IMG/VR virus record: IMGVR_UViG_3300027793_000063
Coordinates: 1-64,000 of that record
Direction: 5' to 3' (one strand)
Source: a virus
DNA: 64,000 nucleotides
Below the pieces are notes generated by a model, which worked only from the letters and a program-made list of their open reading frames with translations, had not been told where the DNA came from and did not search any database. This document shows, in pieces, positions 3,084 to 60,370 of the stretch (position 1 is its first letter; each line of letters begins with the position of its first letter). The position numbers were made by a program, and so were the translations under genes.

Positions 3084-3662
3084 TTACTTTTTGTCGTGCA
3101 TGATCAGCAGCTCCCCGTGACGCTCGTATGGCGTCCACTGGTAGTTCTCCGGCAGCTTGCCGCTCAGCTTCGTCAGCGCCCCGTACCACGTCTCGCCGAT
3201 GTCCGTGTGCGCCCGCAGCGCCCGGTAGAACGTCGGCAGGCCGGCGCGGTAGCCACGCCACACCCTGGTCGGATGCCAGAAGCCGGCGCTGCCGCGTCGC
3301 AGGATGGGGCCCAGGCACTCCAGCAGCTCCTCATGCGTCAGGTCGTTGCCCTTGTTGTCGTCGCCCCAGATGAACAGCCGCTCCGGGTAGAACGTGGAGG
3401 ACTCGTTGTCGCGACCGATCAGCGGCCGCCCGTTGCGCATCCCTTCCGAGAGGAACGCGTAGTGATGCTCCTTGGCGTCGTCGTCGACCCGCCACCCGTA
3501 GGGCGTGGCGATGCCGGCCGCGATGCGATCGGGCCTGCCCTTGATGGGGAACACGTGGTCGCCCTGGGATGTCGTCACGCCTTCGGTCGGCATGTCCGGC
3601 GACAGGTTGTACATGGACTGCATGAAGCCCCACATGGCTCCGCTGAGATGAATTGCTTTCAT
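3084..3662 (-). CDS. Hypothetical protein
   Basis: 192 residues from ATG 3662 in ATGA overlap with the sigma-like gene upstream, so the two are probably co-translated. Rich in aromatic residues and glycine, with charged segments (FLSEGMRNGRPLIGRDNESS, FIWGDDNKGNDLTHEELLEC). No motif recognised. Confidence 0.8.
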   Translation of the reverse strand: MKAIHLSGAMWGFMQSMYNLSPDMPTEGVTTSQGDHVFPIKGRPDRIAAGIATPYGWRVDDDAKEHHYAFLSEGMRNGRPLIGRDNESSTFYPERLFIWGDDNKGNDLTHEELLECLGPILRRGSAGFWHPTRVWRGYRAGLPTFYRALRAHTDIGETWYGALTKLSGKLPENYQWTPYERHGELLIMHDKK

Positions 3663-4558
3663 TGCTGTGCTGTTGGGTTGTCGAGTTCGCGTTCACGTTT
3701 GCGCAAGATCTTCCGCAACTTGAGAAACGCTTCGTTTTGGATCTGCCTGGTGCGCTCCCGTGTGAGGCCAACCTTTGTCCCAACCTCATCGAGCGAGAAT
3801 CCATCAGCACGCATCCGTATTATGAGACGTGCGCGCGCGTCGAGTTCGGACAGGCTCTCCTCCAGCAATTCCAGCGCTACAGGCTCCCGATACTCCTCCG
3901 CTGCTACGTCTCTGGCGGCGCGCAGCGGGCGGGCGAATGTGAGCGGTTCTTCCGGGAGTTCGCCTGACACGATGCGTGTATGAGTTCTGATGCGTTCCTG
4001 AGCGCGGTCTGGGGTCAGTCGTCCATCGGGACAGCATTCGCGACAGATGAACATACCAACACGCTGGCTCTTTCCGCCGCTCTGGCCCTTGCTGCGGGGT
4101 CCGTGGATGATGACTCCGTTCTTGACCGGCATTCCAGTCGCGCGCACCTCGCAATAAGCGCACTTGCGACCACTATTTGCTGGAGGCCTGCCTTCAGCGA
4201 TGCGCTTTTCGCGGCGTCTTGCGGCTGCAGCCCGGCCGCGCTCGGACTGGTTGTATAGACGCGTGTGCTCGGGGTTTCGTTTACCGTTGATCCTGGAAGG
4301 TACGCCGTATTTCAACTGTTGGCGCATTCCCGCATTTGGATACTTCTTGCAGTAATACCAGCGCTGATATGCGGGATTCCGCCTGCCGTCGACCATGCAG
4401 GGAGGAGCACCTTCGGCGCGTGGCTTGCGAGGTTCGACTCCGAGGACATTACGAGCATACCAGACATGGTAGGCTGGATTACTGCGCCCATCTGGAAGCC
4501 TGCTTTTCGGTTTCTCGTTAGCTGCGTTCGTGCTCATGTCTGACGTTGATGTGATCAT
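3659..4558 (-). CDS. Sigma-70 region-4-like protein with repeated N-terminal motif and zinc-binding segment
   Basis: 299 residues from ATG 4558 (ATG 4537, MSTNAANE, is equally plausible because of its C/A-rich leader). Residues about 229-290 look like sigma-70 region 4: LSELDARARLIIRMRADGFS then LDEVGTKVGLTRERTRQIQ, the helix-turn-helix that binds the -35 element, and a LKLRKILRKRERELD tail. No region 2 or 3 is visible. The N-terminal half is unusual: three copies of DGRxNPAYxxWY (residues ~23-34, 57-68, and a weaker one at 91-102), then a CxxC (133-136) and CxxCC (172-176) that may bind zinc. It could be a minimal sigma factor or a sigma-derived DNA-binding regulator. Confidence 0.8.
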   Translation of the reverse strand: MITSTSDMSTNAANEKPKSRLPDGRSNPAYHVWYARNVLGVEPRKPRAEGAPPCMVDGRRNPAYQRWYYCKKYPNAGMRQQLKYGVPSRINGKRNPEHTRLYNQSERGRAAAARRREKRIAEGRPPANSGRKCAYCEVRATGMPVKNGVIIHGPRSKGQSGGKSQRVGMFICRECCPDGRLTPDRAQERIRTHTRIVSGELPEEPLTFARPLRAARDVAAEEYREPVALELLEESLSELDARARLIIRMRADGFSLDEVGTKVGLTRERTRQIQNEAFLKLRKILRKRERELDNPTAQQ

Positions 4559-11447: not shown

Positions 11448-11480
11448 TTTTTATGTGGTGAATTTTTTATGTGGTGAATT
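11448..11480 (-). repeat. 17-bp tandem duplication spanning stop codon and leader
   Basis: TTTTTATGTGGTGAATT occurs twice (11448-11464 and 11464-11480, plus strand). On the sense strand this is TTCACCACATAAAAA repeated: the first copy holds the upstream gene's final codons and TAA stop, the second serves as leader for ATG 11446. Confidence 0.9.
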
Positions 11481-12039
11481 CGTGCCTCTCGACTGTGAAC
11501 TGTCCGACGTATTTGCCGCGTTGGTATGCCTCAACCTTCCAGCCGTCCATGCGGTTGCGCGCCCATACCATCCGCTGCACCTCCAGCCTCCAGCGGCGCC
11601 ACTTCTTGACGCCAGCCTTGTTGTGCGACAGGTCGATCTCGCCAGTCAGCACAGCCTCACGGACAATTCCGATGTTCGCCCGGCTGCGTCCCCGCGGCGA
11701 CCGCCCGTTGTTGATTACGATCTGACGCACCCGTTCCCGGGTGATGCCGAGCCTCGCCCCGATGGATATCAGCGTATCGCCGCGGTCAAACAGTCGCAGC
11801 AGTTCCGAGTGGTCCAGGATCTTCCTGATCTTGCAATTCGGCGTCCCTTTCCTGAAACCCCTCCGACGTATCGCAACGCCGGCGATCCGCAGGTAACGCA
11901 GCAGTGTGACACTGCTGAAGCCCGCCTCCTTGCTGAGCGCCTCCGCGGTCTCGCCCGCCTCGTAGCGCGGAGCGAAGCCGCGAACAACAGCGAGGCGGCG
12001 CTGCACATGCTCTTCGCGGACGGATCGTTTCGCGCTCAT
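11467..12039 (-). CDS. Helix-turn-helix protein with sigma-70 region-4-like motif
   Basis: 190 residues; ATG 12039 overlaps the upstream stop (ATGA). Two helix-turn-helix segments are visible: residues ~33-52 (AEALSKEAGFSSVTLLRYLR) and ~90-110 (LISIGARLGITRERVRQIVI). The second carries the TRERVRQI signature of sigma region 4.2 recognition helices and matches TRERTRQI in the protein at 3659-4558. The C-terminus is basic and Trp-rich (KKWRRWRLEVQRMVWARNR). Likely a DNA-binding transcription regulator or reduced sigma-like factor. Confidence 0.78.
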   Translation of the reverse strand: MSAKRSVREEHVQRRLAVVRGFAPRYEAGETAEALSKEAGFSSVTLLRYLRIAGVAIRRRGFRKGTPNCKIRKILDHSELLRLFDRGDTLISIGARLGITRERVRQIVINNGRSPRGRSRANIGIVREAVLTGEIDLSHNKAGVKKWRRWRLEVQRMVWARNRMDGWKVEAYQRGKYVGQFTVERHEFTT

Positions 12040-12362
12040 CCGTAATCCTTTCCGTCGATCACCGGGATGACGAAGTGGTCGGTGCCGTGCACCCAGCGCA
12101 CGAATGCCATCGCCGCCGCCTCGGTCTCGGCCAGCAGGACCGTGTCGTGGATGGCCTGCTCGCATCCGGTGACTGGGCCGCTGGTTGTGCCGCGGCGACG
12201 TGCGGGGTGCATGTGCCGGAACCGCTTCAGGTCCTTCGGGATGTTCCACTCGACGTGGCAGTTGAGGCAGCGCAGAGCTTTTCCAGGGATCCGTTCGTGG
12301 CGGTAGACGCGACAACGCGGACATTCGATCGCCAACTTTGGGTCAGCGCAGGTGTGGTTCAT
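12036..12362 (-). CDS. Zinc-ribbon hypothetical protein
   Basis: 108 residues from ATG 12362, behind a C/A-rich leader (AAAACCAACCAAAACAAA). Zinc ribbon CPRC (~15-18) and CLNC (~32-35). C-terminal region helical. Coupled to the HTH gene downstream. Confidence 0.7.
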   Translation of the reverse strand: MNHTCADPKLAIECPRCRVYRHERIPGKALRCLNCHVEWNIPKDLKRFRHMHPARRRGTTSGPVTGCEQAIHDTVLLAETEAAAMAFVRWVHGTDHFVIPVIDGKDYG

Positions 12363-26018: not shown

Positions 26019-26278
26019 TCTGGTTCGATTTGTTGTGCACCCGGAATCGGGGTCAGTTGATCCCGGGCGAATGCGAGTTGCTCCTCCTTGGTGCTGATGC
26101 TGGATCCCTGCCAGAGATCGCAGAAGCTGAGATACTCCAGCCCGATGTGCGTCACGCCGTCGTTGCGCCGCGTCGGTGTCCACCGATAGAACATTTGCGG
26201 TGTCTGCCCGGTCGGGTCACCCGGCCACGGCAGATACATTTGCGCGCCGCGGGTCGCCGCCGCTTGCTGCGCGGTCAC
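26015..26278 (-). CDS. Hypothetical small protein, GTG start
   Basis: 87 residues from GTG 26278 in GTGA overlap with the ligase stop. Pro/Gln-rich, with MYLPWPGDPTGQTPQMFYRW. Unrecognised. Confidence 0.65.
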   Translation of the reverse strand: MTAQQAAATRGAQMYLPWPGDPTGQTPQMFYRWTPTRRNDGVTHIGLEYLSFCDLWQGSSISTKEEQLAFARDQLTPIPGAQQIEPE

Positions 26279-28812
26279 AGCATCGCCCGCGCTTCGGCCT
26301 CCGTGAGAATCCGCACGCCGGCGTCCTGCGCCTTCTTGAGCTTGCTGCCGCAGTCCTCCCCGGCGATCAGGAAGTCCGTCTTCTTGGACACCGAGCCGCT
26401 GAGCTTGGCGCCGGCCTTCTCCAGCTCCGCCTCCATCACGTGACGGGGCACGCTGATTGTGCCGGTGAGCACGACCGTCTTGCCTTTGAACAGGCTGTCG
26501 CCAGCCGCCGGCTCTGCCTTGACGGGTTCCGGCGCGTAGTTGTCCGACTTCACGGTGTCCGGGATGAGCGACAGGACACGCCTGCCTTCAGTGCCGTTGA
26601 CGAAGTTCACCAGCGCCATCAGCGAGACCGGTCCCAGGTGGTGACTGATCTCGTATTGCTTCTTGATGATATCGAACTCCGGCGTGGAACTGACAGCTGG
26701 GTAGCCCACCATCCGACGGAAGAAGCCGACGGAAGATGTGCACTCCTCGACGAGATGCAGGACGTCTCTGCACAGCCGGCTAATCTCCTTCGACGTGTTC
26801 TTGCCGATGGTGTGGATCCCCAGCGCGGCAATCCAGTTCCGCAACGGCAGTTTCTCCGCCGCCCGCATGGCTTTATGCAGCGTCTCCGCTCTGGATTCGC
26901 CGAAGGTCATCTTGCCGCCAGACTCCGTGGTCCACGACAGATTGGCGAACCATGATGCGGGAACCTTGAACAGGTCGAACGGATGCTGGAAATTGTCGAT
27001 CTCCAGCGGCGCGCGGAACGCGATCTCCGCGCACAGCTCAGTGCCCATCTGGGACAGGTTCAGGCAGTCGCGACTGGCCATGTGCTCGATGCGGGCCGCC
27101 ATCTGGGCCTTGCAGCCGGCGGTGTTGGTGCACATCCAGACCGAGGCTGCTTTGGCGGTCGACTTACCCACCGACTGTGCCGCCCTCATGACTACTGCTT
27201 GCTCGATGCTCGTGCTTCCGCAGCTCGGGCACTTGCCGCCGATATGATCGGGGAGGTTGAACTGCGGACGTCCTAGATCGTCACCGCCGTAAGCCGCAGC
27301 GAAGTTCGCCACGCGCGCGACTCGCATCTGCTCGCGAGTCGGATCGTCTCCAAACATCCTCCGCGCGGTGTCGACTGTGTTTTTGCTTGCGGCGACTCGC
27401 ACGATCTCCGGGATCACAGCACCAGCCTTGCGGACGATGACCCGGTCGCCCACGGCCAGCCCCAAGCGATTCACCTGGTCCTCGTTGTGCAGCGTGGCGC
27501 GCGAGACGACGCTGCCGTCCACCTCGACCGGTTCCAGCTCTGCCACGGGCGTCAGGACGCCGCTGCGGCCCACCTGGACGGTGATGGCCTTCAGCGTGGT
27601 CTCGACCTCATCCTGCTTGAACTTGAAGGCGATGGCCCACCGCGGCGCCCGGGATGTGCTGCCGAGGTGCTCGCGCAGCTTGTAGTCGTTGACCTTGAGC
27701 ACGACGCCGTCAGTCGGATATGGCTGATCGGCGATCTCCTTCAGCCGGAGCCACGAGATCACCTCGCCCGTCGCTCGGTGGCTGCCGTCCGCAAGGAGGT
27801 AGACCGCCGGTGCGAACTTGAGCCCCAGCGATTGCAACCACTCCGCGTCGTCGCCGTAACAGTCGGACAACGTGTCGGAGGCGATGCCGTGTGCGATGAA
27901 CGACAGCCCCTGTCCGGCCACCTCCGCGGGATTCTTGCGCCGCAGGATGCCGGCCGCTGCGTTGCGCGGGTTGGAGTAGACCTCCTCGCCCGCCGCCTTC
28001 TGCCGTTCGTTGAGTGCCTCGAAGTCGGCGAAGGTCATGAAGACCTCCCCGTTGATTTCGACCGGCTCGCACTGCAGCTCCAGCGGCACCAGCTTGGCCA
28101 TCATCACGTTGAGCGTGACGTCATCCCCGGTCTCGCCGTCGCCGCGGGTGACCGCCTTCGTCAGATGTATGTGTTCCGACTGCCCGATGCGCGCGTAGGT
28201 CAGGCGCAGGCTCAGCCCGTCGATCTTCGGCTCGGCGACGAGCGCGCAGCCTTTGCAGGCCTCGTCTCCGTTCAGCTTCGCCAGCCACTTGGTCAGCTCA
28301 TCGATGTTGCCGTCGTCCCCGGCGAAGACGTTGTCCAGCGACTGCATCGGGCAGCTGTGCTTCACCTTGGCGAACCCGGACTGCGGATGCGGGGCCGCTC
28401 CCACTTTGTCCAGGATGGTGTCGCGCCACACCGGGTCGTCCGTCTCGTGGGCATCGTCGGCGCGTGCGTCCTGGTGTTCCCGCCAGAGCGCGTCGTATTC
28501 GGAGTCGCGCATGATGGCGTTGCCGTTCATGTATGCCTCGTTGGCGACGCGAAGCTTCTGCTCGCGCTCTGCGTTGTTCAGTTTTGTGGTCGTTGTCATG
28601 ATTTTGATGATGTGGAGTTTGTCGAGGGCCTCGTCAGACCATGTGCGTCCGAAGGTTCGGACTGCTATCTCAGGGCTCATTTCTGGCCAGAGTGAATACC
28701 CCGTTTCGTTCATGTCCGCGTCGAAGTAGTAGACGATCGTGCCGCTCGACCTCCTTCCTGAGAAGGTGGAGATGCTGCGCAAGTGCTCGTCGGTGCAGGG
28801 ATGGCTGGTCAT
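26275..28812 (-). CDS. ligA: NAD+-dependent DNA ligase
   Basis: Seals nicks in duplex DNA using NAD+. Domains in order: shortened Ia region (NNAEREQKLRVANEAYMNGN then DSEYDALW), adenylation motif EPKIDGLSLR with the nucleotide-binding Lys, OB-fold region (GRSGVLTPVAELEPVEVDGS), four-Cys zinc finger (CPSCGS ... CTNTAGC), helix-hairpin-helix (NWIAALGIHTIGKNT) and C-terminal BRCT (GKTVVLTGTISVPRHVMEAE). From ATG 28812 (ATGA overlap upstream) it is 845 residues with a novel ~70-residue N-terminal extension. From internal ATG 28599, behind a C/A-rich leader, it is 774 residues and more typical. The extension may be a small gene fused by loss of its stop. Confidence 0.95.
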   Translation of the reverse strand: MTSHPCTDEHLRSISTFSGRRSSGTIVYYFDADMNETGYSLWPEMSPEIAVRTFGRTWSDEALDKLHIIKIMTTTTKLNNAEREQKLRVANEAYMNGNAIMRDSEYDALWREHQDARADDAHETDDPVWRDTILDKVGAAPHPQSGFAKVKHSCPMQSLDNVFAGDDGNIDELTKWLAKLNGDEACKGCALVAEPKIDGLSLRLTYARIGQSEHIHLTKAVTRGDGETGDDVTLNVMMAKLVPLELQCEPVEINGEVFMTFADFEALNERQKAAGEEVYSNPRNAAAGILRRKNPAEVAGQGLSFIAHGIASDTLSDCYGDDAEWLQSLGLKFAPAVYLLADGSHRATGEVISWLRLKEIADQPYPTDGVVLKVNDYKLREHLGSTSRAPRWAIAFKFKQDEVETTLKAITVQVGRSGVLTPVAELEPVEVDGSVVSRATLHNEDQVNRLGLAVGDRVIVRKAGAVIPEIVRVAASKNTVDTARRMFGDDPTREQMRVARVANFAAAYGGDDLGRPQFNLPDHIGGKCPSCGSTSIEQAVVMRAAQSVGKSTAKAASVWMCTNTAGCKAQMAARIEHMASRDCLNLSQMGTELCAEIAFRAPLEIDNFQHPFDLFKVPASWFANLSWTTESGGKMTFGESRAETLHKAMRAAEKLPLRNWIAALGIHTIGKNTSKEISRLCRDVLHLVEECTSSVGFFRRMVGYPAVSSTPEFDIIKKQYEISHHLGPVSLMALVNFVNGTEGRRVLSLIPDTVKSDNYAPEPVKAEPAAGDSLFKGKTVVLTGTISVPRHVMEAELEKAGAKLSGSVSKKTDFLIAGEDCGSKLKKAQDAGVRILTEAEARAML

Positions 28813-29342
28813 CCTTGGACCTCCAGCTCTTGCACGTAGACGAACATCGGCTGCGGCCCGACGTAGCCTGCGATGTCGAATCCTCCCTGCCGATGCGTGT
28901 GCGGTTCGTATTTCCTGGGGCCGTCGTAGTAGTTCACCGGCTTGGTGAACTCCTTCACGAGCCTGTCGGCCACCTCCTGCGTGGCAGCAACCTGCATCTC
29001 CCAGCATCGACCGAGCCGGTAGCCGTCGTAATCCACCTTCATGACGACGAAGACCTTCGAGGCTCTGCGCATCGCTTTACGGCAAACCTTGTAGACATCC
29101 GAATTCTGCGCTGCGGCTGCGGCCAGTAGAAACTGATCCCACTTCAAGCCGGCGAGACCAAGCGCCACGGCCAGTTTGGCTGCGGCTTTTTGCCCGACCG
29201 GGCGTCGAGCGTTCTCGATGTTCGAGATGAAGCTGTGCGGAATCCCCGATTTCTCAGCCAGCGCCCGAAGACTCAAACCCGCATCACTTCGCCGCGCACG
29301 GAGAATGGAAGCGAGGATCGCTGGGGCAGACTCACGCTTCAT
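28809..29342 (-). CDS. XRE-family helix-turn-helix regulator
   Basis: 177 residues from ATG 29342. Residues ~9-65 are a Cro/CI-type HTH (LRARRSDAGLSLRALAEKSG, IPHSFISNIENARRPVG). The C-terminal ~100 residues are a separate beta-rich domain of unknown role. It overlaps the upstream gene by 11 bp and precedes the ligase; it may repress or tune a phage promoter. Confidence 0.85.
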   Translation of the reverse strand: MKRESAPAILASILRARRSDAGLSLRALAEKSGIPHSFISNIENARRPVGQKAAAKLAVALGLAGLKWDQFLLAAAAAQNSDVYKVCRKAMRRASKVFVVMKVDYDGYRLGRCWEMQVAATQEVADRLVKEFTKPVNYYDGPRKYEPHTHRQGGFDIAGYVGPQPMFVYVQELEVQG

Positions 29343-35785: not shown

Positions 35786-36018
35786 GCCACATCCTCCGCA
35801 GGGCGCGGCGATACCAGCGTCCAGTCTCGCAGGATGCTCTTGCACGACTTGACGAAAGCCATCGGCGCAAATCTCGGGTCGTCGGCATACCGATAGTAGC
35901 AAACAGCCAAGCCTTCGTCGATGTAGACGATACGGATTGTCGTGTTAGGATTGTTGTCGTCCGGGTTGCGATATCGCTGTCCGACGACGACTTCGGACGG
36001 CGCTTCCGTTTGTTTCAT
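35782..36018 (-). CDS. Hypothetical small protein
   Basis: 78 residues from ATG 36018 (ATGA with the methyltransferase stop). Beta-rich (QRYRNPDDNNPNTTIRIVYI). Similar small proteins with a GQRYRxxD start occur in phages; role unknown. Confidence 0.68.
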   Translation of the reverse strand: MKQTEAPSEVVVGQRYRNPDDNNPNTTIRIVYIDEGLAVCYYRYADDPRFAPMAFVKSCKSILRDWTLVSPRPAEDVA

Positions 36019-38129
36019 TTGTAGATGTGTTCAACTTTTGGCCACACGTTGGAGTTCTGCGAATACCACGCCAAGCCGAGGGCTCGAGACACGCCGCGGC
36101 TGACACTGTTTCCGATGGCCCTAATGATCTCAGTCTTTGTGCAATGGCTCCATTTCATATCGTCTGGAAAGCCCATCGCGCGCTGCAGCTCCAGTGGCGT
36201 CAGCATGCGATAGAACAGGTCGATCTTGATCAGCTTCCCGTCCAGTTCGATCACCGGGTAGACCAGGGCGTGCCCGGCCTTGGTGCGCACGGTCGGCAGC
36301 GGCTCGTCGATCGACTTCCCCTCCGAGCCGTTGCTGTAGTAGACGTAGATCCACGGCTTGGCGTCGACCTTGCCCCGGCGCTTCAGCTCCGCCACCAGAT
36401 GGTTGAGGAACGTGGTGGCGCGCGAGGTGTCCACGCCCTTCTCGCTGCACGCGTGAAGGAACCGGTCTGACACCACCTCGAGCTCGACCTCGATGCAGGT
36501 CTGGCTCGCCTTGGTCACGATTGTGCGGACCGGGGCGTCGACCGGGTAGGTCCCGTCGTTGCCCCTGGCGCCGCCTGTCTGGTCGATGGCGAACATGAAC
36601 GCCTCGGCGATGGCCTGGTGGCTGCCGCCGGCCGTGGAGGTGCGCAATGGATCGTCCACGCTCTTGCAGACGCCGGTGCCGCGCTGGTTGTCCGGCATGG
36701 CGATCTCGGGCTGCATCACGTAGTGCCCTTGGGACGTCGTAAGCGACGTCAGGGGGCTGTCGATGCTCTGAGCGGTGCTCTGACCCTTCAGCTGGACGAT
36801 CGACGGCTCCACGAGGCCCTCACCGGTCATGGTGGTGGTCACCGTGCTAACCGGTGTGTCGACGCCCTTCACCCAGTCCTTTTTGCTGCCGGCATGGTGC
36901 GGGATGATGTAGGCCTCTGACCTCACGACGCCGCCGGCGCCGTGGCTCGTAACCGTGGGTACCGGGTCGTCCACGCTGTGCGTCCTGGGCTCTTGGCCTG
37001 GGGCTTCGCCGAAGTTCGGCGTGATGAATTCCCCTTCAGCCTTCACCAGTCCGCGCTCACCCTTTGCGGTGAACGTCTGGAGCGGCTGGTCCACGTCGTG
37101 CACACGACGATCACAGTCCGACGCCTTCGGGCTGCCATGAGCCGAGCTGATCAGGAACTCGCGCAGTCCGTATTTCACCAACCCGATGGCCAGGCGGCGG
37201 AACGTATTGTCAGCGAGGTTTTTGTTCCTCGTAAACACGCTCAGGCCCTTCAACTCCCACTGAATGACGCTGGTCCGAGCGGTACGCCAGTCCATCGGAC
37301 GCCCGTGCCCGGTGCCGCGCTCCCCGGCGTAGGGGTCCGGCCAGACGATCTTCTTACCTGAATCCTTGCGGACGAAGTAGACGAACAGCCTCTGGCGGAT
37401 GGTGGGGTCACCGTAGTCAGCGGACTTGAGGACGCGGTAGTCGGACTCGTATCCCAGCGCCTGCATCTCGGCGATCCATGCCTGGAAGTATTCGCCGCGG
37501 CGCTCCTTGTCCGGCACCTCGTAGGGTTGGTAGCCGGCAGCCTTCATGCGCTTGCCCCAGTCTGTCTCGGTCTCTTTCGCCCGTCGGCGCTCCTTTTTCC
37601 GCAACTTTACTGGTCGGCCCTTCCGAGCCCACATGAGTTCGTCCACGATTGGTGGACCCGCCTTCTCCGGCCAACGCTTCTGGATCACAGGGCCATAGGT
37701 CAGAAATTCTCTCACGTTCTCACATATCACAGCTTCAGGACGCAAGTGGCGCACCCAATCGACTACGCTGAAGGCGTGACTTCTGCCTTGCTCAGTCACG
37801 CAGGTTGCTCCCCTGGCCACGCTGAAATGAACGCAGCTCGGACTAGCCCAAAGCAGGCTGCAATTTGTACCGTGCGGAAACACAGCGACCGGATCTAACA
37901 AAAACAGATCCTCCATGATATGCCGGTGCTCAGGGTGGTTAGCTTGGTGAATCTCAATAGCCTTGTCCCAGTGATTGACGAATGTTCCGCGCACGTCGCG
38001 TTGCAGTATGACGTTGGCATCGAGCAGGCCACCACCTGAACCACCACAGCCGCAGTAGAGGTCAACTAGGTTATCACGCCGATCGTCAACTTGCCTCTCT
38101 GACAGCACTATCAGATTGTTTTCTCGCAC
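36015..38129 (-). CDS. DNA cytosine-5 methyltransferase
   Basis: 704 residues from GTG 38129, long for the family (~330-450). Motif I DLYCGCGGSGGG (~23-34), motif IV ASPSCVHFS with catalytic Cys99 (SPSC in place of the usual PPC), motif VI ENVREF (~137-142), motif VIII near DYGDPTIRQRLF, and motif X IGNSVSRGVSRALG at the C-terminus. Between VIII and X are about seven copies of a (S/V)(V/I)DxPxxTxTxxxG unit, e.g. SVDDPVPTVTSHG and SIDEPLPTVRTKAG, which enlarge the target-recognition region. Overlaps the HNH/AP2 gene by 44 bp. Confidence 0.93.
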   Translation of the reverse strand: MRENNLIVLSERQVDDRRDNLVDLYCGCGGSGGGLLDANVILQRDVRGTFVNHWDKAIEIHQANHPEHRHIMEDLFLLDPVAVFPHGTNCSLLWASPSCVHFSVARGATCVTEQGRSHAFSVVDWVRHLRPEAVICENVREFLTYGPVIQKRWPEKAGPPIVDELMWARKGRPVKLRKKERRRAKETETDWGKRMKAAGYQPYEVPDKERRGEYFQAWIAEMQALGYESDYRVLKSADYGDPTIRQRLFVYFVRKDSGKKIVWPDPYAGERGTGHGRPMDWRTARTSVIQWELKGLSVFTRNKNLADNTFRRLAIGLVKYGLREFLISSAHGSPKASDCDRRVHDVDQPLQTFTAKGERGLVKAEGEFITPNFGEAPGQEPRTHSVDDPVPTVTSHGAGGVVRSEAYIIPHHAGSKKDWVKGVDTPVSTVTTTMTGEGLVEPSIVQLKGQSTAQSIDSPLTSLTTSQGHYVMQPEIAMPDNQRGTGVCKSVDDPLRTSTAGGSHQAIAEAFMFAIDQTGGARGNDGTYPVDAPVRTIVTKASQTCIEVELEVVSDRFLHACSEKGVDTSRATTFLNHLVAELKRRGKVDAKPWIYVYYSNGSEGKSIDEPLPTVRTKAGHALVYPVIELDGKLIKIDLFYRMLTPLELQRAMGFPDDMKWSHCTKTEIIRAIGNSVSRGVSRALGLAWYSQNSNVWPKVEHIYK

Positions 38130-51986: not shown

Positions 51987-53048
51987 TCAGTATAGTTGTT
52001 GGTGTTTGATATCCCACAGTTCTTGGTATCGCTGCCGCACAGTGCTCTCGTCGAGGTAAGGACTCTCCCACTCGTAGAACGCGCAGATCGACCGGCGCAT
52101 CTCTGCGAGCTTCCTACTCTCCTCCGCGGTCGGCACGCAGTGCGGCCAGCCCTTGGTGAACTGCAGATGCTTGGGCACCCAGCCCTGCGCTTTGTTCCGA
52201 TGTGCTGCCAGACTCTGCGCGGTGCCCAATCGTTCGAGCCCATTCGGGACCAGGTCCGGCGCCAGCGACGTGAGCCAGCGGCTGCCCTGGAACGCGAAGC
52301 CGCTCGCCAGTTCGAGGTCGCACATCCGGACGTAGATCGCCGCGGCGGCCGGGTCCTTCAGGCTGGCGCGCAGGTCCGCCTCGTTGGCGAGGATGCAGAA
52401 CCGACACGACACGCGGGATGACCCGAACAGCGAGTATGCCTCATGGGGTTTGATGCCTGACGCGGCAATCTCCGCCCACACGTCTTCCTCCGTCCAGTGA
52501 TGAATAGGGCGCCATGCTAGGCTGCCGGGCGGAAGCTTGGCAACAGGCGCGCAGACGGGCTGCTTGGAGCGTGCAGCGCTCTCCTCCCCGCGCACGCCGG
52601 TGACGTTGAGCACCGGAACCTTGCCGAAGCGTCGCTTGATCAGGGAGGTGATGGGAGCGACCTTCAGCTCTGACTGACAAAAGCGCATGGCCGGCGTGCT
52701 CCACGGCAGCACGACAGTCACAGTCTCCATCGCGCAGTAGCGACGCTTGGAAGACGCCCACCTAGACTCCCAGCGCTCCATCATGCCCCCGGCTGGGCGC
52801 GTGCAGGATGCCAGTTCCCACCCCGTGCGCTCAGCGATGCGCTGGCAGCTAGGCCAAGAGTCGAGCCACTCGGTGGATCCCAAATCTGCATGCAGAAGCA
52901 GCTTCGGGCCGGCGTAGTCGAGAAGAGCCTGAGACACTGCCCAGGCGACGGCCGTGGAATCCTTTCCGCCGGAAAGGCCGATCACCACAGGAGCCTGCGC
53001 GTTCAGCAGGCGTTGCACTTCGGGAGGTATCAGGATGTTTCTGCTCAT
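51987..53048 (-). CDS. PAPS reductase/DndC-like ATP pyrophosphatase
   Basis: 353 residues from ATG 53048. PP-loop SGGKDST (26-32), then HADLGSTEW (~53-61), a RFCQSELKVAPI segment (~122-133), TGVRGEES (~150-157) and CRFC (215-218). This is the CysH/DndC-type adenine-nucleotide alpha-hydrolase family. The three Cys at 124, 215 and 218 could hold an iron-sulfur cluster. Phage members are usually labelled PAPS reductase, but DndC-like roles in DNA phosphorothioation or tRNA thiolation are alternatives; no dndD or dndE is visible nearby. Confidence 0.88.
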   Translation of the reverse strand: MSRNILIPPEVQRLLNAQAPVVIGLSGGKDSTAVAWAVSQALLDYAGPKLLLHADLGSTEWLDSWPSCQRIAERTGWELASCTRPAGGMMERWESRWASSKRRYCAMETVTVVLPWSTPAMRFCQSELKVAPITSLIKRRFGKVPVLNVTGVRGEESAARSKQPVCAPVAKLPPGSLAWRPIHHWTEEDVWAEIAASGIKPHEAYSLFGSSRVSCRFCILANEADLRASLKDPAAAAIYVRMCDLELASGFAFQGSRWLTSLAPDLVPNGLERLGTAQSLAAHRNKAQGWVPKHLQFTKGWPHCVPTAEESRKLAEMRRSICAFYEWESPYLDESTVRQRYQELWDIKHQQLY

Positions 53049-55187: not shown

Positions 55188-55673
55188 TTAAACCGGCTTG
55201 CCGGACTGTAATAGAGTGATGCCCCGCAGATGATCGTGCTCGTGCTGAAACACACGGGCCGGCAGACCTGTCAGCTTCTTGTCCGTGATCTTGTGCCCCT
55301 GCTCGTTGGTCCAGGACGCCAGGATGACGTATTCGCGTTCGACGTTGAACTGCCGTCCGGGTAGGGACAAGCAGCCTTCGACGTCGGTGACCTTGACCGA
55401 CTTGGGCCCGGGGCGCCAACTCGGGTTGACGCACAGATGCGCGACGCTCGAATTGACGTTACCAGCGGACGTGACCCTGGCACTCGCCGCGAGGAAGAAG
55501 AAATTCTCCCGCAGGCCGACCTGGTTCGCGGCGATGCCGCATGCGGACTTCTCACGGGCGAGCCGCATCAGGTCCGGGCGGTAAGCGCGTATTGCCGCTG
55601 GGTCCGACTGGATGCCTGTGAGATCCTCGTTGAGAATGTTATCGCGCGTGTTGATCAGTTTTATGGTTAGCAT
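55188..55673 (-). CDS. def: Peptide deformylase
   Basis: 161 residues from ATG 55673; the longer reading from 55703 would start inside the terminator hairpin. All three deformylase motifs are present: GIAANQVG (46-53), EGCLS (99-103) and HEHDH (144-148), whose Cys and two His bind the metal. It removes the N-formyl group from nascent proteins. Phage-encoded copies are known, often with a shortened C-terminus as here. Confidence 0.95.
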   Translation of the reverse strand: MLTIKLINTRDNILNEDLTGIQSDPAAIRAYRPDLMRLAREKSACGIAANQVGLRENFFFLAASARVTSAGNVNSSVAHLCVNPSWRPGPKSVKVTDVEGCLSLPGRQFNVEREYVILASWTNEQGHKITDKKLTGLPARVFQHEHDHLRGITLLQSGKPV

Positions 55674-55684
55674 GGGTACAGCAA

Positions 55685-55714
55685 AAGGCGTCCACGTGTA
55701 CACGTGGACGCCTT
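55685..55714 (-). terminator. Perfect 30-bp palindromic terminator
   Basis: AAGGCGTCCACGTG-TA-CACGTGGACGCCTT, 14-bp arms. On the sense strand it is followed by TTTTGC, giving a rho-independent terminator for the 73-residue gene upstream. It is close enough to the deformylase start to also shape that leader. Confidence 0.85.
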
Positions 55715-56274: not shown

Positions 56275-58188
56275 CTATTTCTGCATGACGTCCGCCAGCG
56301 GCACACGCCCAGCGAGGACGTCCTCGAGCTGCTGCTTCGTCAGTCCCAGCATCGTGCGTGCGGCGTCCTCCATCGCTGGATTGAGGATGGGCCGCGGCAG
56401 ACGAATGCGGCCCCACCGCTCCCCATTCAGCAGCCGGTTGTCGAAAAGGCCACCGGGGATCGGTGTCAGGTCGCGAAGATTCACCATCTCGCCGTTTTCG
56501 ACGTCGATCGGATCGCGCTCGTCCAGGTCGCCGTCCGTGAATGGCGCGAGGCGATACTTGCCCTTGCCGGAGTTGCGCGTGTTGATGCCGGCGCCCGCCA
56601 GCAGCGCGCGGAACTTGTGCCAGACAAACGGCTCGCCGATCTTTGGCAGCGTCTTGTCCGTGCGCAGTGCCATCCAGAAGTCGTGATTCTTCTGCCCGCG
56701 GATTGTGGCATTCTCCCGCATCAGCGAGTAGGCCCCGCTGGACAGTGTTGCAAAATTCTCGAGACCCGAGAAGCGCTTGGCCTGCGCGAATTCGCCGCCG
56801 CCGCGCGTCGGCTGCTGATTTTGGTCATAACTGCCTGTGCCACGGGCACTTACCTTCCCTTCACTTGTATGGTGCAGCTTGTGCACGAAGCCGTAACCCA
56901 CCGTCACCGGCGCGTCCAGCATCCGGCCTTCCTCCGGATCGTAGACCATCTCCTGTGACTGCACGCCGTTCTCGCGTTCCAGCTGGTCAATGTAGTCGTT
57001 CCAGTTCTGCCCTTTCGGCAGGTAGCTGGGCAGCTTCAGCGCGCGCCCCAGCTTCTTGGCAACCTTGCCGAGCCGCAGTTCGTGCTGTGACGCCGGGTTC
57101 GCCCGGGAGACTAGGGACAGCGGATTGAGCAGCGCATCCAGCGGCTGTCCGTCCTCCGTCCGCGGCATCTGGTCGTCGGGAATGATCTTCGAGACGGTCG
57201 CCTTGGCGCCCTGCCGCAGCACGATCTTGTCTCCGACTTCCGTCGGCTTTAGAAATTTCAGGACTACCTTGTAGCCGTTCTTGGTCGCGCGCGCGGCGAT
57301 GACCTGGGCCGGCTGCTGTCCGTGCCACACCTGAGCGGCGTCGCGGCGCTGCTGCCTCAGCGCCTTGCTGAGGCGCCCGATGTTTGCGCCGTCTGACGAC
57401 AGCGTGCGAGGCATCGTCGCGAGCATGACGGGGTCACCAGGCTCCAGCACGGTGCCAGGTCGCACCAGCCCGTGTTCGTCAAAATTTTCCAGCTTCTCCT
57501 TGGTGAAGCGGTTCGGGAAGAGGGCGCGGTAGTGGCTGAGACCTGTCTTCAGATTGTCCGAGCGGTCCTGGTGCATCACCTTGTATTGGACGGCGGACAG
57601 GCGCTTGGCGAACGACTCGCTGACAGGCATGGCGTCGTCCATTCCGAAGCCCTTGAATGGCACCAGAGCGATGCGGGCGTTCAGCCCCATGTTTTGCACG
57701 CCGTTGTCGTCCGTGTAGGACGATGCTGCCATCATCTGCCCGGGTTTGAAGGTGTCACCTTTCTTGAGCAGTGCACGAGAGGAAATTCCCGATTTCTGAT
57801 TGAAATACTGCTCGTTGTATAGGTCGACGTCCGCCGTCTCGCCGTCATCGTAGGAGACGCGGATGTAATCCGGCGTGACGCTGATGACGCGCCCGGCGCG
57901 CTTGGCGCGGACGGCGCCCATGTTCTCGCCGACGATTTCGTCAAAGCTGCGCCCTTCGGGGTCGGACGTGTCCAAGTTCTGGATCAGCGGAGCTTCGCCC
58001 TTGTCGATCGCCAGCGCCTGGTTCGCGAACCGCGCGCCGTAGAACAGCCGCGGCGCTTGCACTGCGCCGGCCAGCGGAATCATGTTGGTGTGCGACCCAA
58101 ACTGCTGCGAGGGCGAGGACAGCTCGTAATCGACATCCGGATCGTCATCCGGCACCTCTTCGAGGCGGTTGTTGCGTACGACGTGCAT
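56275..58188 (-). CDS. DNA-directed RNA polymerase beta subunit, C-terminal half
   Basis: 637 residues from ATG 58188. Conserved beta regions in order: LSSPSQQFGSHTNMIPLAGA and APRLFYGARFANQALAI (rifampicin/fork region equivalent), KFLKPTEVGDKIVLRQGAKA then VSKIIPDDQMP (the GDKxxxRHGxKG...MP catalytic segment), and GYGFVHKLHHTSEGKVSARG, SYDQNQQPTRGG (the YMLKLxH...KxHARSTGxYSxxTQQP region). Near the end GERWGRIRLPRPILNP and MLGLTKQQLEDVLAG resemble the start of beta-prime in phage polymerases. The N-terminal half of beta must be elsewhere, as in split phage polymerases. Confidence 0.88.
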   Translation of the reverse strand: MHVVRNNRLEEVPDDDPDVDYELSSPSQQFGSHTNMIPLAGAVQAPRLFYGARFANQALAIDKGEAPLIQNLDTSDPEGRSFDEIVGENMGAVRAKRAGRVISVTPDYIRVSYDDGETADVDLYNEQYFNQKSGISSRALLKKGDTFKPGQMMAASSYTDDNGVQNMGLNARIALVPFKGFGMDDAMPVSESFAKRLSAVQYKVMHQDRSDNLKTGLSHYRALFPNRFTKEKLENFDEHGLVRPGTVLEPGDPVMLATMPRTLSSDGANIGRLSKALRQQRRDAAQVWHGQQPAQVIAARATKNGYKVVLKFLKPTEVGDKIVLRQGAKATVSKIIPDDQMPRTEDGQPLDALLNPLSLVSRANPASQHELRLGKVAKKLGRALKLPSYLPKGQNWNDYIDQLERENGVQSQEMVYDPEEGRMLDAPVTVGYGFVHKLHHTSEGKVSARGTGSYDQNQQPTRGGGEFAQAKRFSGLENFATLSSGAYSLMRENATIRGQKNHDFWMALRTDKTLPKIGEPFVWHKFRALLAGAGINTRNSGKGKYRLAPFTDGDLDERDPIDVENGEMVNLRDLTPIPGGLFDNRLLNGERWGRIRLPRPILNPAMEDAARTMLGLTKQQLEDVLAGRVPLADVMQK

Positions 58189-58191
58189 GCG

Positions 58192-60294
58192 CTAGGACTG
58201 AGCCGCGGCGAGTCGCGGATCGGTTGTGATCTGGTTGCCGTAGATCTGACTGATGATCCCCATCCGATCGGGTGAGTTTACCATGTCGGACTCGCGCATG
58301 TAGCGCGGTGGCTGAGGCGTAGTGAGACGCTTCTTCAGCATCCAATCGAACATCGTGTCTCCAAGCGCTCCGTAGGATGCGCGATAGAGTCCAAGCCGCG
58401 GAAACAGCGCGTTGGCGCCGGCGTGATTGTTGAGCATCTGCCCTGATTCGGGCGCGAGATGCCGGAAAGGCTTCGGCGCGGTCCGTCCGGTCTCCGGGTC
58501 GATCGAGCCGGGCACACCGGCGGTGCCAGTGATGTAACTATCGTTGCCGTTGACCTGCAGACGCCCAGGCGCGGGCGGTCCTGTCATTGGCGGCGGCGGA
58601 CTTGCGACTTCGGGCGGCTCAGGCGGCATGCCGGTGGTGTAGCTCTGCCCGTTGACCTGCAGGCGCCCAGGCGCGGCCGTCTTGATTTGACCGACACGCT
58701 TCTGCAGCCGATCGATGCGGTTGCCGATCAGCCGTCCGGCGATCGTGTTCTCGCTGGCGCTCGCGGACGCCGCGCCGTCCGCCTGGGCCTTGCCCATCGC
58801 GGCCGTCATTTTCGCCTGCTCCTTCTGCACTGCGGACGTGGCCTTTGCCTGCTCCTTCTGCAGTGCAGCCGTGGCCTTTGCCGTCTCGAGCTGCAGTTTC
58901 AGCACTTCTTTTTCCTGCTGCTGCTTGCCCAGCTCCTGCTGAAAGCGCTGCTCCTGCTCCATCTGCGCCTGCATGGCTGCCTGCTCCGTCTGGCCCTGCT
59001 GCTGTGCAGCGGCCTGCTCGGCCTGCATGGCTTTTTGTTCGGCCTGCATCACCGCAGGGTTTGCGGCAGGCGGTGGCGTGATGGAGTTGGCAGTCGCCTG
59101 CTGCTGATTCTGCATCCGCAGCGCCGGGTTCTGTCCGAGCTGCGGCGGCACTGGGACGGCGCCAGCCGGCGCAGGCGCTGGTCCTAGCGCATACTTGGTG
59201 AGTTCGGCGACGAGACCCACCAGCGACGCAGCGGACTTCTCCACAGGCTGCGGCTGCTTCTCGTTGCGATGCTTCGTGCGCGCGCGAGTTTCCGTACGCA
59301 GGCGGCGGCGTGTATCGCGCCCCAGGTTCTGGATGAGCCGGTTCGAAAGTTGCAGGTCACCGATGGGCAGCTTGATCTGCGTCTCGATGTCGCCGGGATG
59401 AGCGGTCGGCAGCGTGACGCTGGCGGTTCCTGCTGCCTCCAGTGCAAGGCGCTTCTGCTCCAGGTCGCTTTTCTGTTTCGCCTTGTAGAGCAGAATGCCC
59501 AACGCGCCCAGGCCGAGCCCGCCGGCCCCCAACCAGACTTCCTTCGGGATGGATTTGATCGGGTTCTCGGCTGGCGGTTTCGCGCGGTCGTGTGCAAAGG
59601 ATTTCGCCGCCTCGGTCGCCGCGTTGTCGACGTTGTAGAGAGTGCCGACTCCTTTCATCGCGAGATCTTTGGTCGGCGCGAGCGCGATAGCACCGAGCCC
59701 GGTGAGGACGTTCTTGCTAGCGATCTGATGTCCGCCGACGGCCCCGAGCAGGGCGTTCAGCCCGCCCATCAGCGTGCGCTCCTTGTCCCACTTCCACGGT
59801 TGGAAGGTGCTGCCGATCGGACGCTTCGTGTCGGCCGCCTGGTCGAAGAACGCGGTCGTGCCGAGTGCTCCGAGAACGCTGCCCAGCGCCTGGATTTTGG
59901 CGTTCGCACACTTCTCGACGACCTCGATGTTCAGACTGCGCGCCAGGGCCCTGGACGGCGAGTTGTGCCGCATGATCATGGCCTTCACGTCATCGCAATG
60001 ATCGCGGACTTCCCGGATGACCTGTGCGACGGCCGACTTCGCGAAGCCGCGCTCGCGGTATGCCGGCAGAATGCCGACCGCGTAGTATCCGACTTTTTTT
60101 TCGCCCTCGTCGAACTTCTGCCAGCCGACAAAACCCACCGGGTCCGCGGTGGCAGATTCTTTCACGAGATACAGCCCGCCGTTGAACTGATTGGTCTTCA
60201 GTCCGTGCGGCCAGTAGGACGGATCCTCGTGCAGGATTCGACTCATGATGCCTTCGACGATGGGCAGCTCGGAGGCCGCGGCAACTTTGATCAT
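58192..60294 (-). CDS. GNAT-domain protein with long Q/A-rich coiled coil (possible virion protein)
   Basis: 700 residues from ATG 60294, chosen because the longer frame runs through the terminator hairpin. Residues ~1-135 are a GNAT acetyltransferase fold: YAVGILPAYRERGFAKSAVA contains the acetyl-CoA loop (Q/RxxGxG/A variant). Then a hydrophobic Gly-rich segment (WLGAGGLGLGALGILLY) possibly spanning membrane, a long Gln/Ala/Lys coiled coil (~440-560), two APGRLQVNG repeats and a C-terminal tail (YGALGDTMFDWMLKKRL). This mosaic suggests a structural or injected protein, perhaps packaged with the polymerase encoded next. Confidence 0.75.
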   Translation of the reverse strand: MIKVAAASELPIVEGIMSRILHEDPSYWPHGLKTNQFNGGLYLVKESATADPVGFVGWQKFDEGEKKVGYYAVGILPAYRERGFAKSAVAQVIREVRDHCDDVKAMIMRHNSPSRALARSLNIEVVEKCANAKIQALGSVLGALGTTAFFDQAADTKRPIGSTFQPWKWDKERTLMGGLNALLGAVGGHQIASKNVLTGLGAIALAPTKDLAMKGVGTLYNVDNAATEAAKSFAHDRAKPPAENPIKSIPKEVWLGAGGLGLGALGILLYKAKQKSDLEQKRLALEAAGTASVTLPTAHPGDIETQIKLPIGDLQLSNRLIQNLGRDTRRRLRTETRARTKHRNEKQPQPVEKSAASLVGLVAELTKYALGPAPAPAGAVPVPPQLGQNPALRMQNQQQATANSITPPPAANPAVMQAEQKAMQAEQAAAQQQGQTEQAAMQAQMEQEQRFQQELGKQQQEKEVLKLQLETAKATAALQKEQAKATSAVQKEQAKMTAAMGKAQADGAASASASENTIAGRLIGNRIDRLQKRVGQIKTAAPGRLQVNGQSYTTGMPPEPPEVASPPPPMTGPPAPGRLQVNGNDSYITGTAGVPGSIDPETGRTAPKPFRHLAPESGQMLNNHAGANALFPRLGLYRASYGALGDTMFDWMLKKRLTTPQPPRYMRESDMVNSPDRMGIISQIYGNQITTDPRLAAAQS

Positions 60295-60334
60295 GCGGAA
60301 TGCTACCGCACTTTCCGTCGCAGGTAAAGAGGAA

Positions 60335-60370
60335 GCAGCCGCCGCCACCGGTGAGGGTGGCGGCGGCTGC
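60335..60370 (-). terminator. Strong (possibly bidirectional) terminator
   Basis: Perfect 15-bp GC-rich stem (60335-60349 with 60356-60370) and 6-nt loop in the gap after the gene ending at 60403. The sense side continues TTCCTCTTTACC; the other side continues GACGATTTTTCC. Confidence 0.85.

Follow-up and report, generated by a model that had tools for sequence, protein, structure and literature searches.

A gene of 637 codons at positions 56275-58188 (minus strand) of a 64,000-nucleotide viral sequence (the window; positions 1 to 64,000 of IMG/VR record IMGVR_UViG_3300027793_000063, itself a 126,971-base fragment) very probably codes for a subunit, one of five, in the bacterial-type RNA polymerase core of a large tailed phage. 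By the same reading, the enzyme of its clade is a fusion of beta and beta-prime, which has been cut into five pieces in this lineage. An original prediction, made from the sequence alone, had described the gene as beta running into beta-prime; the junction is real, but the protein is better understood as a segment of a re-split fused chain.

Beta and beta-prime sequence in a single chain

The gene, its two parts and its catalytic residues are located as follows:

56275-58188, minus strand: betaC-beta-primeN1, whole gene, 637 amino acids, third of five RNA polymerase pieces; open reading frame (ORF) with beta and beta-prime profile matches
56554-58188, minus strand: beta part, residues 1 through ~545, which correspond to roughly 649-1325 of E. 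coli beta; PDB alignments, AlphaFold and Foldseek
56275-56553, minus strand: beta-prime part (residues ~546-637), an N-terminal clamp segment that corresponds to Taq beta-prime at about 16-53 and 90-128; clade profile and Pfam
57634-57636, minus strand: D185, equivalent of E. coli beta D814, preceded by D (E. coli E813); alignment
57226-57228, minus strand: K321, equivalent of E. coli beta K1065; invariant in 156 relatives
57202-57204, minus strand: K329, equivalent of E. coli beta K1073; invariant in 156 relatives

The predicted ORF with its C-terminal residues is present, and the catalytic beta segments are kept, as had been claimed. Pfam RNA_pol_Rpb2_6 covers residues 125-463 (E 3.9e-45), and residues ~6-540 align with beta chains in the PDB at E 2.9e-45 as a single sequence and 4.5e-83 as a four-sequence profile; for the E. 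coli equivalence, a 38-residue start offset was removed from the Salmonella record used as a yardstick. The equivalents of D814 and of the catalytic lysines K1065 and K1073 (motifs GDK and AK) are invariant in the 156 relatives, while the window's clade has D in place of E813. The beta double-psi beta-barrel (DPBB) with its two catalytic lysines, one of the hallmarks of two-barrel polymerases, is therewith present. An AlphaFold model based on 70 aligned rows (mean predicted local distance difference test score, pLDDT, 86.8) retrieves bacterial beta chains in Foldseek at E ~1e-40. On these comparisons, homology of the protein to RNA polymerase is confirmed far beyond chance.

The claim that the protein ends in the start of beta-prime also held in profile searches. 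A profile of the C-terminal stretch, built from 60 clade sequences, matched in the PDB, among the matches listed, solely beta-prime and archaeal A-prime chains, and these at their N-termini. Its best match is Taq beta-prime (1i6v_D) at residues 16-53 (E 1.3e-6), followed by a weak collinear stretch at 90-128; the segment between residues 53 and 90, a region that holds the beta-prime zinc-binding domain in bacteria, is missing from the beta-prime start of the clade. When the 60 members were scanned singly, Pfam RNA_pol_Rpb1_1 was recognized in 38 (best E 6.1e-7). Beta is thus continuous with the start of beta-prime in one chain, as in the fusion clade around Salmonella phage Arash and Vibrio phage D69.

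Five separate genes, probably for one enzyme

The original prediction had named a beta N-terminal half and a beta-prime with a DFDGD motif as parts to be sought elsewhere in the genome. The remaining pieces were searched for with Arash gp206, a chain of 1525 amino acids that runs from beta through the DYDGD motif of beta-prime, and gp216, the C-terminal half of beta-prime, as probes. The former part was found on the window's own contig (G000), the latter, together with a further beta-prime piece, in longer sister genomes (G001 and G002):

74228-75715 of the window's contig, minus strand: betaN1, 495 amino acids
71090-73927 of the window's contig (L010:11090-13927), minus strand: betaN2, 945 amino acids including an intein
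72557-73708 of G002: beta-primeN2, 383 amino acids, with NADFDGD
95561-97450 of G002: beta-primeC, 629 amino acids

The order of the pieces is accordingly betaN1 (495 residues), betaN2 (core of ~220), betaC-beta-primeN1 (637), beta-primeN2 (~383) and beta-primeC (~620), and no cut falls at the ordinary beta/beta-prime boundary. The NADFDGD motif of the G002 beta-primeN2 represents the second two-barrel feature, the beta-prime DPBB with DxDGD. No beta-prime match (PF00623) was obtained on the window's own contig fragment, because the contig ends there: its base 1 aligns to position 177,128 of G001, ~1.1 kb before beta-primeN2 at 178,250. The five-part layout is common to the G000/G003, G001 and G002 assemblies, and the genome of locus L043 keeps the four gp206-derived pieces apart. 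An alpha subunit was not detected in the five records searched. All five pieces are under purifying selection, with ratios of nonsynonymous to synonymous substitution rates (dN/dS) of 0.12-0.20.

As most relatives have a longer chain, the ORF might be what is left of a longer fused gene that has broken down, or such a gene wrongly assembled. We rejected this explanation, which is extremely improbable: the ends of the ORF are identical in G000, G001, G002 and G003, its dN/dS against G002 is 0.12 over 637 codons, and 33 loci from a second, independent group hold a separately starting beta-primeN2 ORF of similar length. Inteins are frequent in the polymerase genes of the clade, and the pieces could in principle be rejoined by split inteins or trans-splicing introns, such that the working enzyme is one chain. 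This, too, was rejected as highly unlikely, given that inspection by eye revealed no intein halves at the ends of the 637-residue protein, betaN1, or the G002 copies of betaN2 and beta-primeN2, and that distances of 13-62 kb, occupied by many genes, separate the pieces. In G000 and G002, the portal gene sits between betaN2 and betaC-beta-primeN1.

Another alternative is a polymerase of the phiKZ/AR9 type, either virion or non-virion, whose cut points differ slightly. Those enzymes are likewise split phage polymerases without alpha, their virion forms comprise at least five polypeptides, and the cut between beta-primeN2 and beta-primeC, after the beta-prime DPBB, is common to phiKZ-type phages and cyanobacteria (PMC7598289). 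However, the phiKZ scheme keeps beta and beta-prime fragments as separate polypeptides (PMC7598289) and never joins them as they are joined in the 637-residue gene, in line with the original prediction of an unusual subunit boundary. Two enzymes per genome are the phiKZ rule, whereas G002, a genome of ~200 kb that is closed in view of its 181-bp terminal repeat and a portal gene running across its ends, has a single beta-prime barrel and one polymerase set. G002, G001, Arash and D69 each gave one beta-prime barrel match, although a very divergent second enzyme could escape this search. Moreover, the best phage matches are Arash and the Vibrio phages D69, D181 and D148, with no phiKZ relatives among them, and the protein matches bacterial beta chains by plain sequence at ~1e-45. 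Membership of the phiKZ type was therefore rejected for the joined beta/beta-prime and the single polymerase set, and we regard it as very improbable. With the five-subunit reading retained, the five chains would join non-covalently into one crab-claw core without a phage alpha, in which beta-primeN2 (three aspartates) and the 637-residue protein (two lysines) would form the active site and the fused chain would tie the C-terminus of beta covalently to the beta-prime clamp.

Several pieces carry inteins or extensions. The G000 copy of betaN2 contains an intein of ~330 residues in the conserved GPE^S motif (C...GN^S), which the G001 and G002 copies are without; further inteins occur in betaC of L041 and L043 and at several other loci. 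In L029 (2751-5885, plus strand; G001 178250-181384), a LAGLIDADG intein of ~620 residues follows directly after the NADFDGD of beta-primeN2, and appears to open with ~80 residues (EVHNQV...) unlike a normal intein start; G002 is without it. An N-terminal extension of ~410 residues is found on betaN2 in G000, G001 and G003 (L010:11090-13927, minus strand; L028:4476-6287, plus strand) and not in G002. The C-terminal domain of betaN1 (WLQWYENYHTGRR...; L010:14228-15715, minus strand) recurs beside a NUDIX domain at the N-terminus of the L043 beta-primeN2 (L043:13626-16214, plus strand) with 42% identity; judged by this similarity, it has moved between polymerase pieces.

Architectures and cut sites across the clade

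The clade consists of large tailed phages, with complete or long genomes of ~160-225 kb. In a census of 160 IMG/VR loci, with further loci cut off by contig ends, 72 encode a single-chain beta-beta-prime, mostly of 2,018-2,217 residues; 35 have the Arash layout, split after the catalytic DxDGD domain, and 33 are divided into beta plus beta-primeN1, beta-primeN2 and beta-primeC. The five-part layout is found in close relatives of the window. Wherever both are visible, beta is joined to the start of beta-prime; the sole exception is L191 (6704-12775, plus strand), where in-frame stops, which may represent a reassigned stop codon, break the polymerase into consecutive ORFs. A relative of the polymerase (L233, NZ_JABAFY010000071.1) was found in the genome of a Desulfovibrio piger isolate, on a contig of 9.3 kb, which hints at one of the clade's host groups.

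We computed quick trees for beta, rooted with Salmonella RpoB as a single long outgroup row, and for beta-prime. The window's protein falls inside the Arash/D69 fusion clade on the beta tree; on the beta-prime tree, G002 stands in for it. The architectures follow the beta tree closely, with three changes needed compared to ~50 for shuffled labels, and the split groups form one clade (Shimodaira-Hasegawa-like approximate likelihood ratio test, SH-aLRT, 97). A single origin of the cut between beta-primeN1 and beta-primeN2 is rejected on both trees (p 1.4e-6 for beta, 2.6e-4 for beta-prime), so that, as far as the trees tell, this cut arose twice. The direction of the first step, from fused to split, is less sure, with re-fusion as the alternative, because the two trees place the single-chain forms differently: they are basal on the beta tree, but form one side of the beta-prime tree with weak support (69).

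BetaN1 and betaN2 are separated between E. coli beta ~225 and ~426, a region in which E. coli beta has a lineage-specific insertion and in which the relatives L042 and L044 carry insertions of 424 and 384 residues. BetaC-beta-primeN1 ends in a segment that maps to Taq beta-prime 16-128, and beta-primeN2 starts at Thermus beta-prime 457 or E. coli beta-prime 181, which places this cut at the site of a ~300-residue Thermus insertion. From these positions, the cuts seem to fall where insertions are tolerated. A fuller scenario, whose chances we consider evenly balanced, is that the polymerase was first fused into a single chain, from which successive cuts made two, three and five subunits; that the beta-prime cut near residue ~140-180 arose twice independently at the Thermus insertion site; that the ordinary beta/beta-prime boundary was never restored; and that virions contain the five-part form as a holoenzyme, together with a sigma of the phage's own.

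This clade offers a natural series in which the same enzyme exists as one, two, three and five polypeptides. The origin of phage polymerase splits and the cut and fusion sites tolerated in a two-barrel polymerase thereby become testable by comparison and reconstitution. The series also indicates that the beta/beta-prime gene boundary can be lost for good with the enzyme still under selection, and the five-piece form illustrates the extent of fusion and re-splitting possible for a universal polymerase.

Virion, gene neighbours and known systems

In the Arash virion proteome, gp206 yielded 3516 spectra, the most of all proteins, at 100% coverage, next to 1210 for gp216 and 467 for the sigma gp10 (PMC10585845). 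Given this abundance and the presence of sigma, Arash appears to carry a virion polymerase. By analogy, the window's phage likely packages its polymerase together with a phage sigma, and this enzyme would perform early transcription after injection. The polymerase might instead be made late, in cellular style, and merely be carried over into virion preparations without being injected; such carry-over of abundant proteins is raised in the Arash paper as another explanation (PMC10585845), and the virion data stem from a lineage other than the window's. Since the spectra of gp206 outnumber those of the major capsid protein, and both gp216 and a sigma are present as well, we hold carry-over to be rather unlikely.

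Several points weigh against the five-subunit, packaged enzyme proposed here. The window's own 96-residue tail, searched alone, has no Pfam match; it is too divergent, and its confirmed assignment to beta-prime thus depends on the clade profile. Beta-primeN2 and beta-primeC lie off the window's contig, and their sequences are those of sister genomes. Finally, the packaging data come from Arash, whose two-piece enzyme is ~30% identical.

The two sigma-like proteins predicted in the window do match sigma, albeit region 4 only:

3659-4558, minus strand: sigma region 4 helix-turn-helix protein, no region 2 match; with a stretch containing cysteines, possibly of nuclease fold
11467-12324, minus strand: sigma region 4 match over just 25 residues, no region 2 match

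A better sigma candidate of the clade is the homologue of Arash gp10, which is present in G001, G002 and D69 and lies off the window's contig. The suggested promoter class of the phage's own is plausible, but is not established by the contents of the window; k-mer enrichment over 58 upstream regions, based on crude gene calls, gave no convincing motif. Other genes of the window are:

58192-60348, minus strand: 718-residue protein combining a GNAT acetyltransferase domain with a long Q/A-rich part; its gene stops 3 bases short of the polymerase gene, and tblastn against the phage collection gave no match
55188-55703, minus strand: peptide deformylase
51987-53048, minus strand: 3'-phosphoadenosine 5'-phosphosulfate (PAPS)-reductase-like protein
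36015-38129, minus strand: cytosine DNA methyltransferase
26275-29007, minus strand: nicotinamide adenine dinucleotide (NAD)-dependent DNA ligase

Matches of the polymerase gene under Staphylococcus, Listeria, Enterococcus and Salmonella names appear to be rpoB genes of bacteria on wrongly labelled contigs; in one case the contig is chromosomal, from Salmonella.

Both split phage polymerases and fused phage beta-beta-prime, the latter in crAssphage, are already known. In Helicobacter and Wolbachia, RpoBC likewise holds beta and beta-prime in one chain as a full-length fusion, and we know of no case in which these fusions were re-split. For the single-chain enzyme of the present clade or its re-splitting, we found no description in the literature searched, which did not extend to subscription papers and is no proof of novelty. 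The crAssphage protein resembles this enzyme in its single chain, but has diverged beyond what the usual profiles recognize (PMC7481178). Phages of the phiKZ/AR9 type (PMC7598289) share the split beta and beta-prime, the lack of alpha and the cut after the DPBB, but they lack a beta-beta-prime junction and a recognizable sigma, carry two enzymes per genome and have beta cut at other points. The mReC phages (Weinheimer and Aylward, 2020; PMC7481178) are similar in being tailed and in their deeply branching, bacterial-like beta and beta-prime, which were treated as subunits, with fusion mentioned only for crAssphage. The window's clade is probably the same as mReC, the tie being a common source: locus L063 comes from metagenome 3300017989, from which two mReC representatives also derive.

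The closest known systems are Arash (gp206 and gp216; OQ632216) and Vibrio phage D69 (VPHD69_0261 and VPHD69_0264), which belong to the same clade with ~30% identity over the whole 637 residues. Like the window's lineage, they join beta to the start of beta-prime and have a similar order of portal, beta-primeC and capsid genes; unlike it, they use two chains, the first comprising beta through DYDGD and the second the C-terminal half of beta-prime. While gp206 and gp216 were labelled 'beta' and 'beta-prime' (PMC10585845), the Arash 'beta' is accordingly to be re-read as beta plus the first half of beta-prime.
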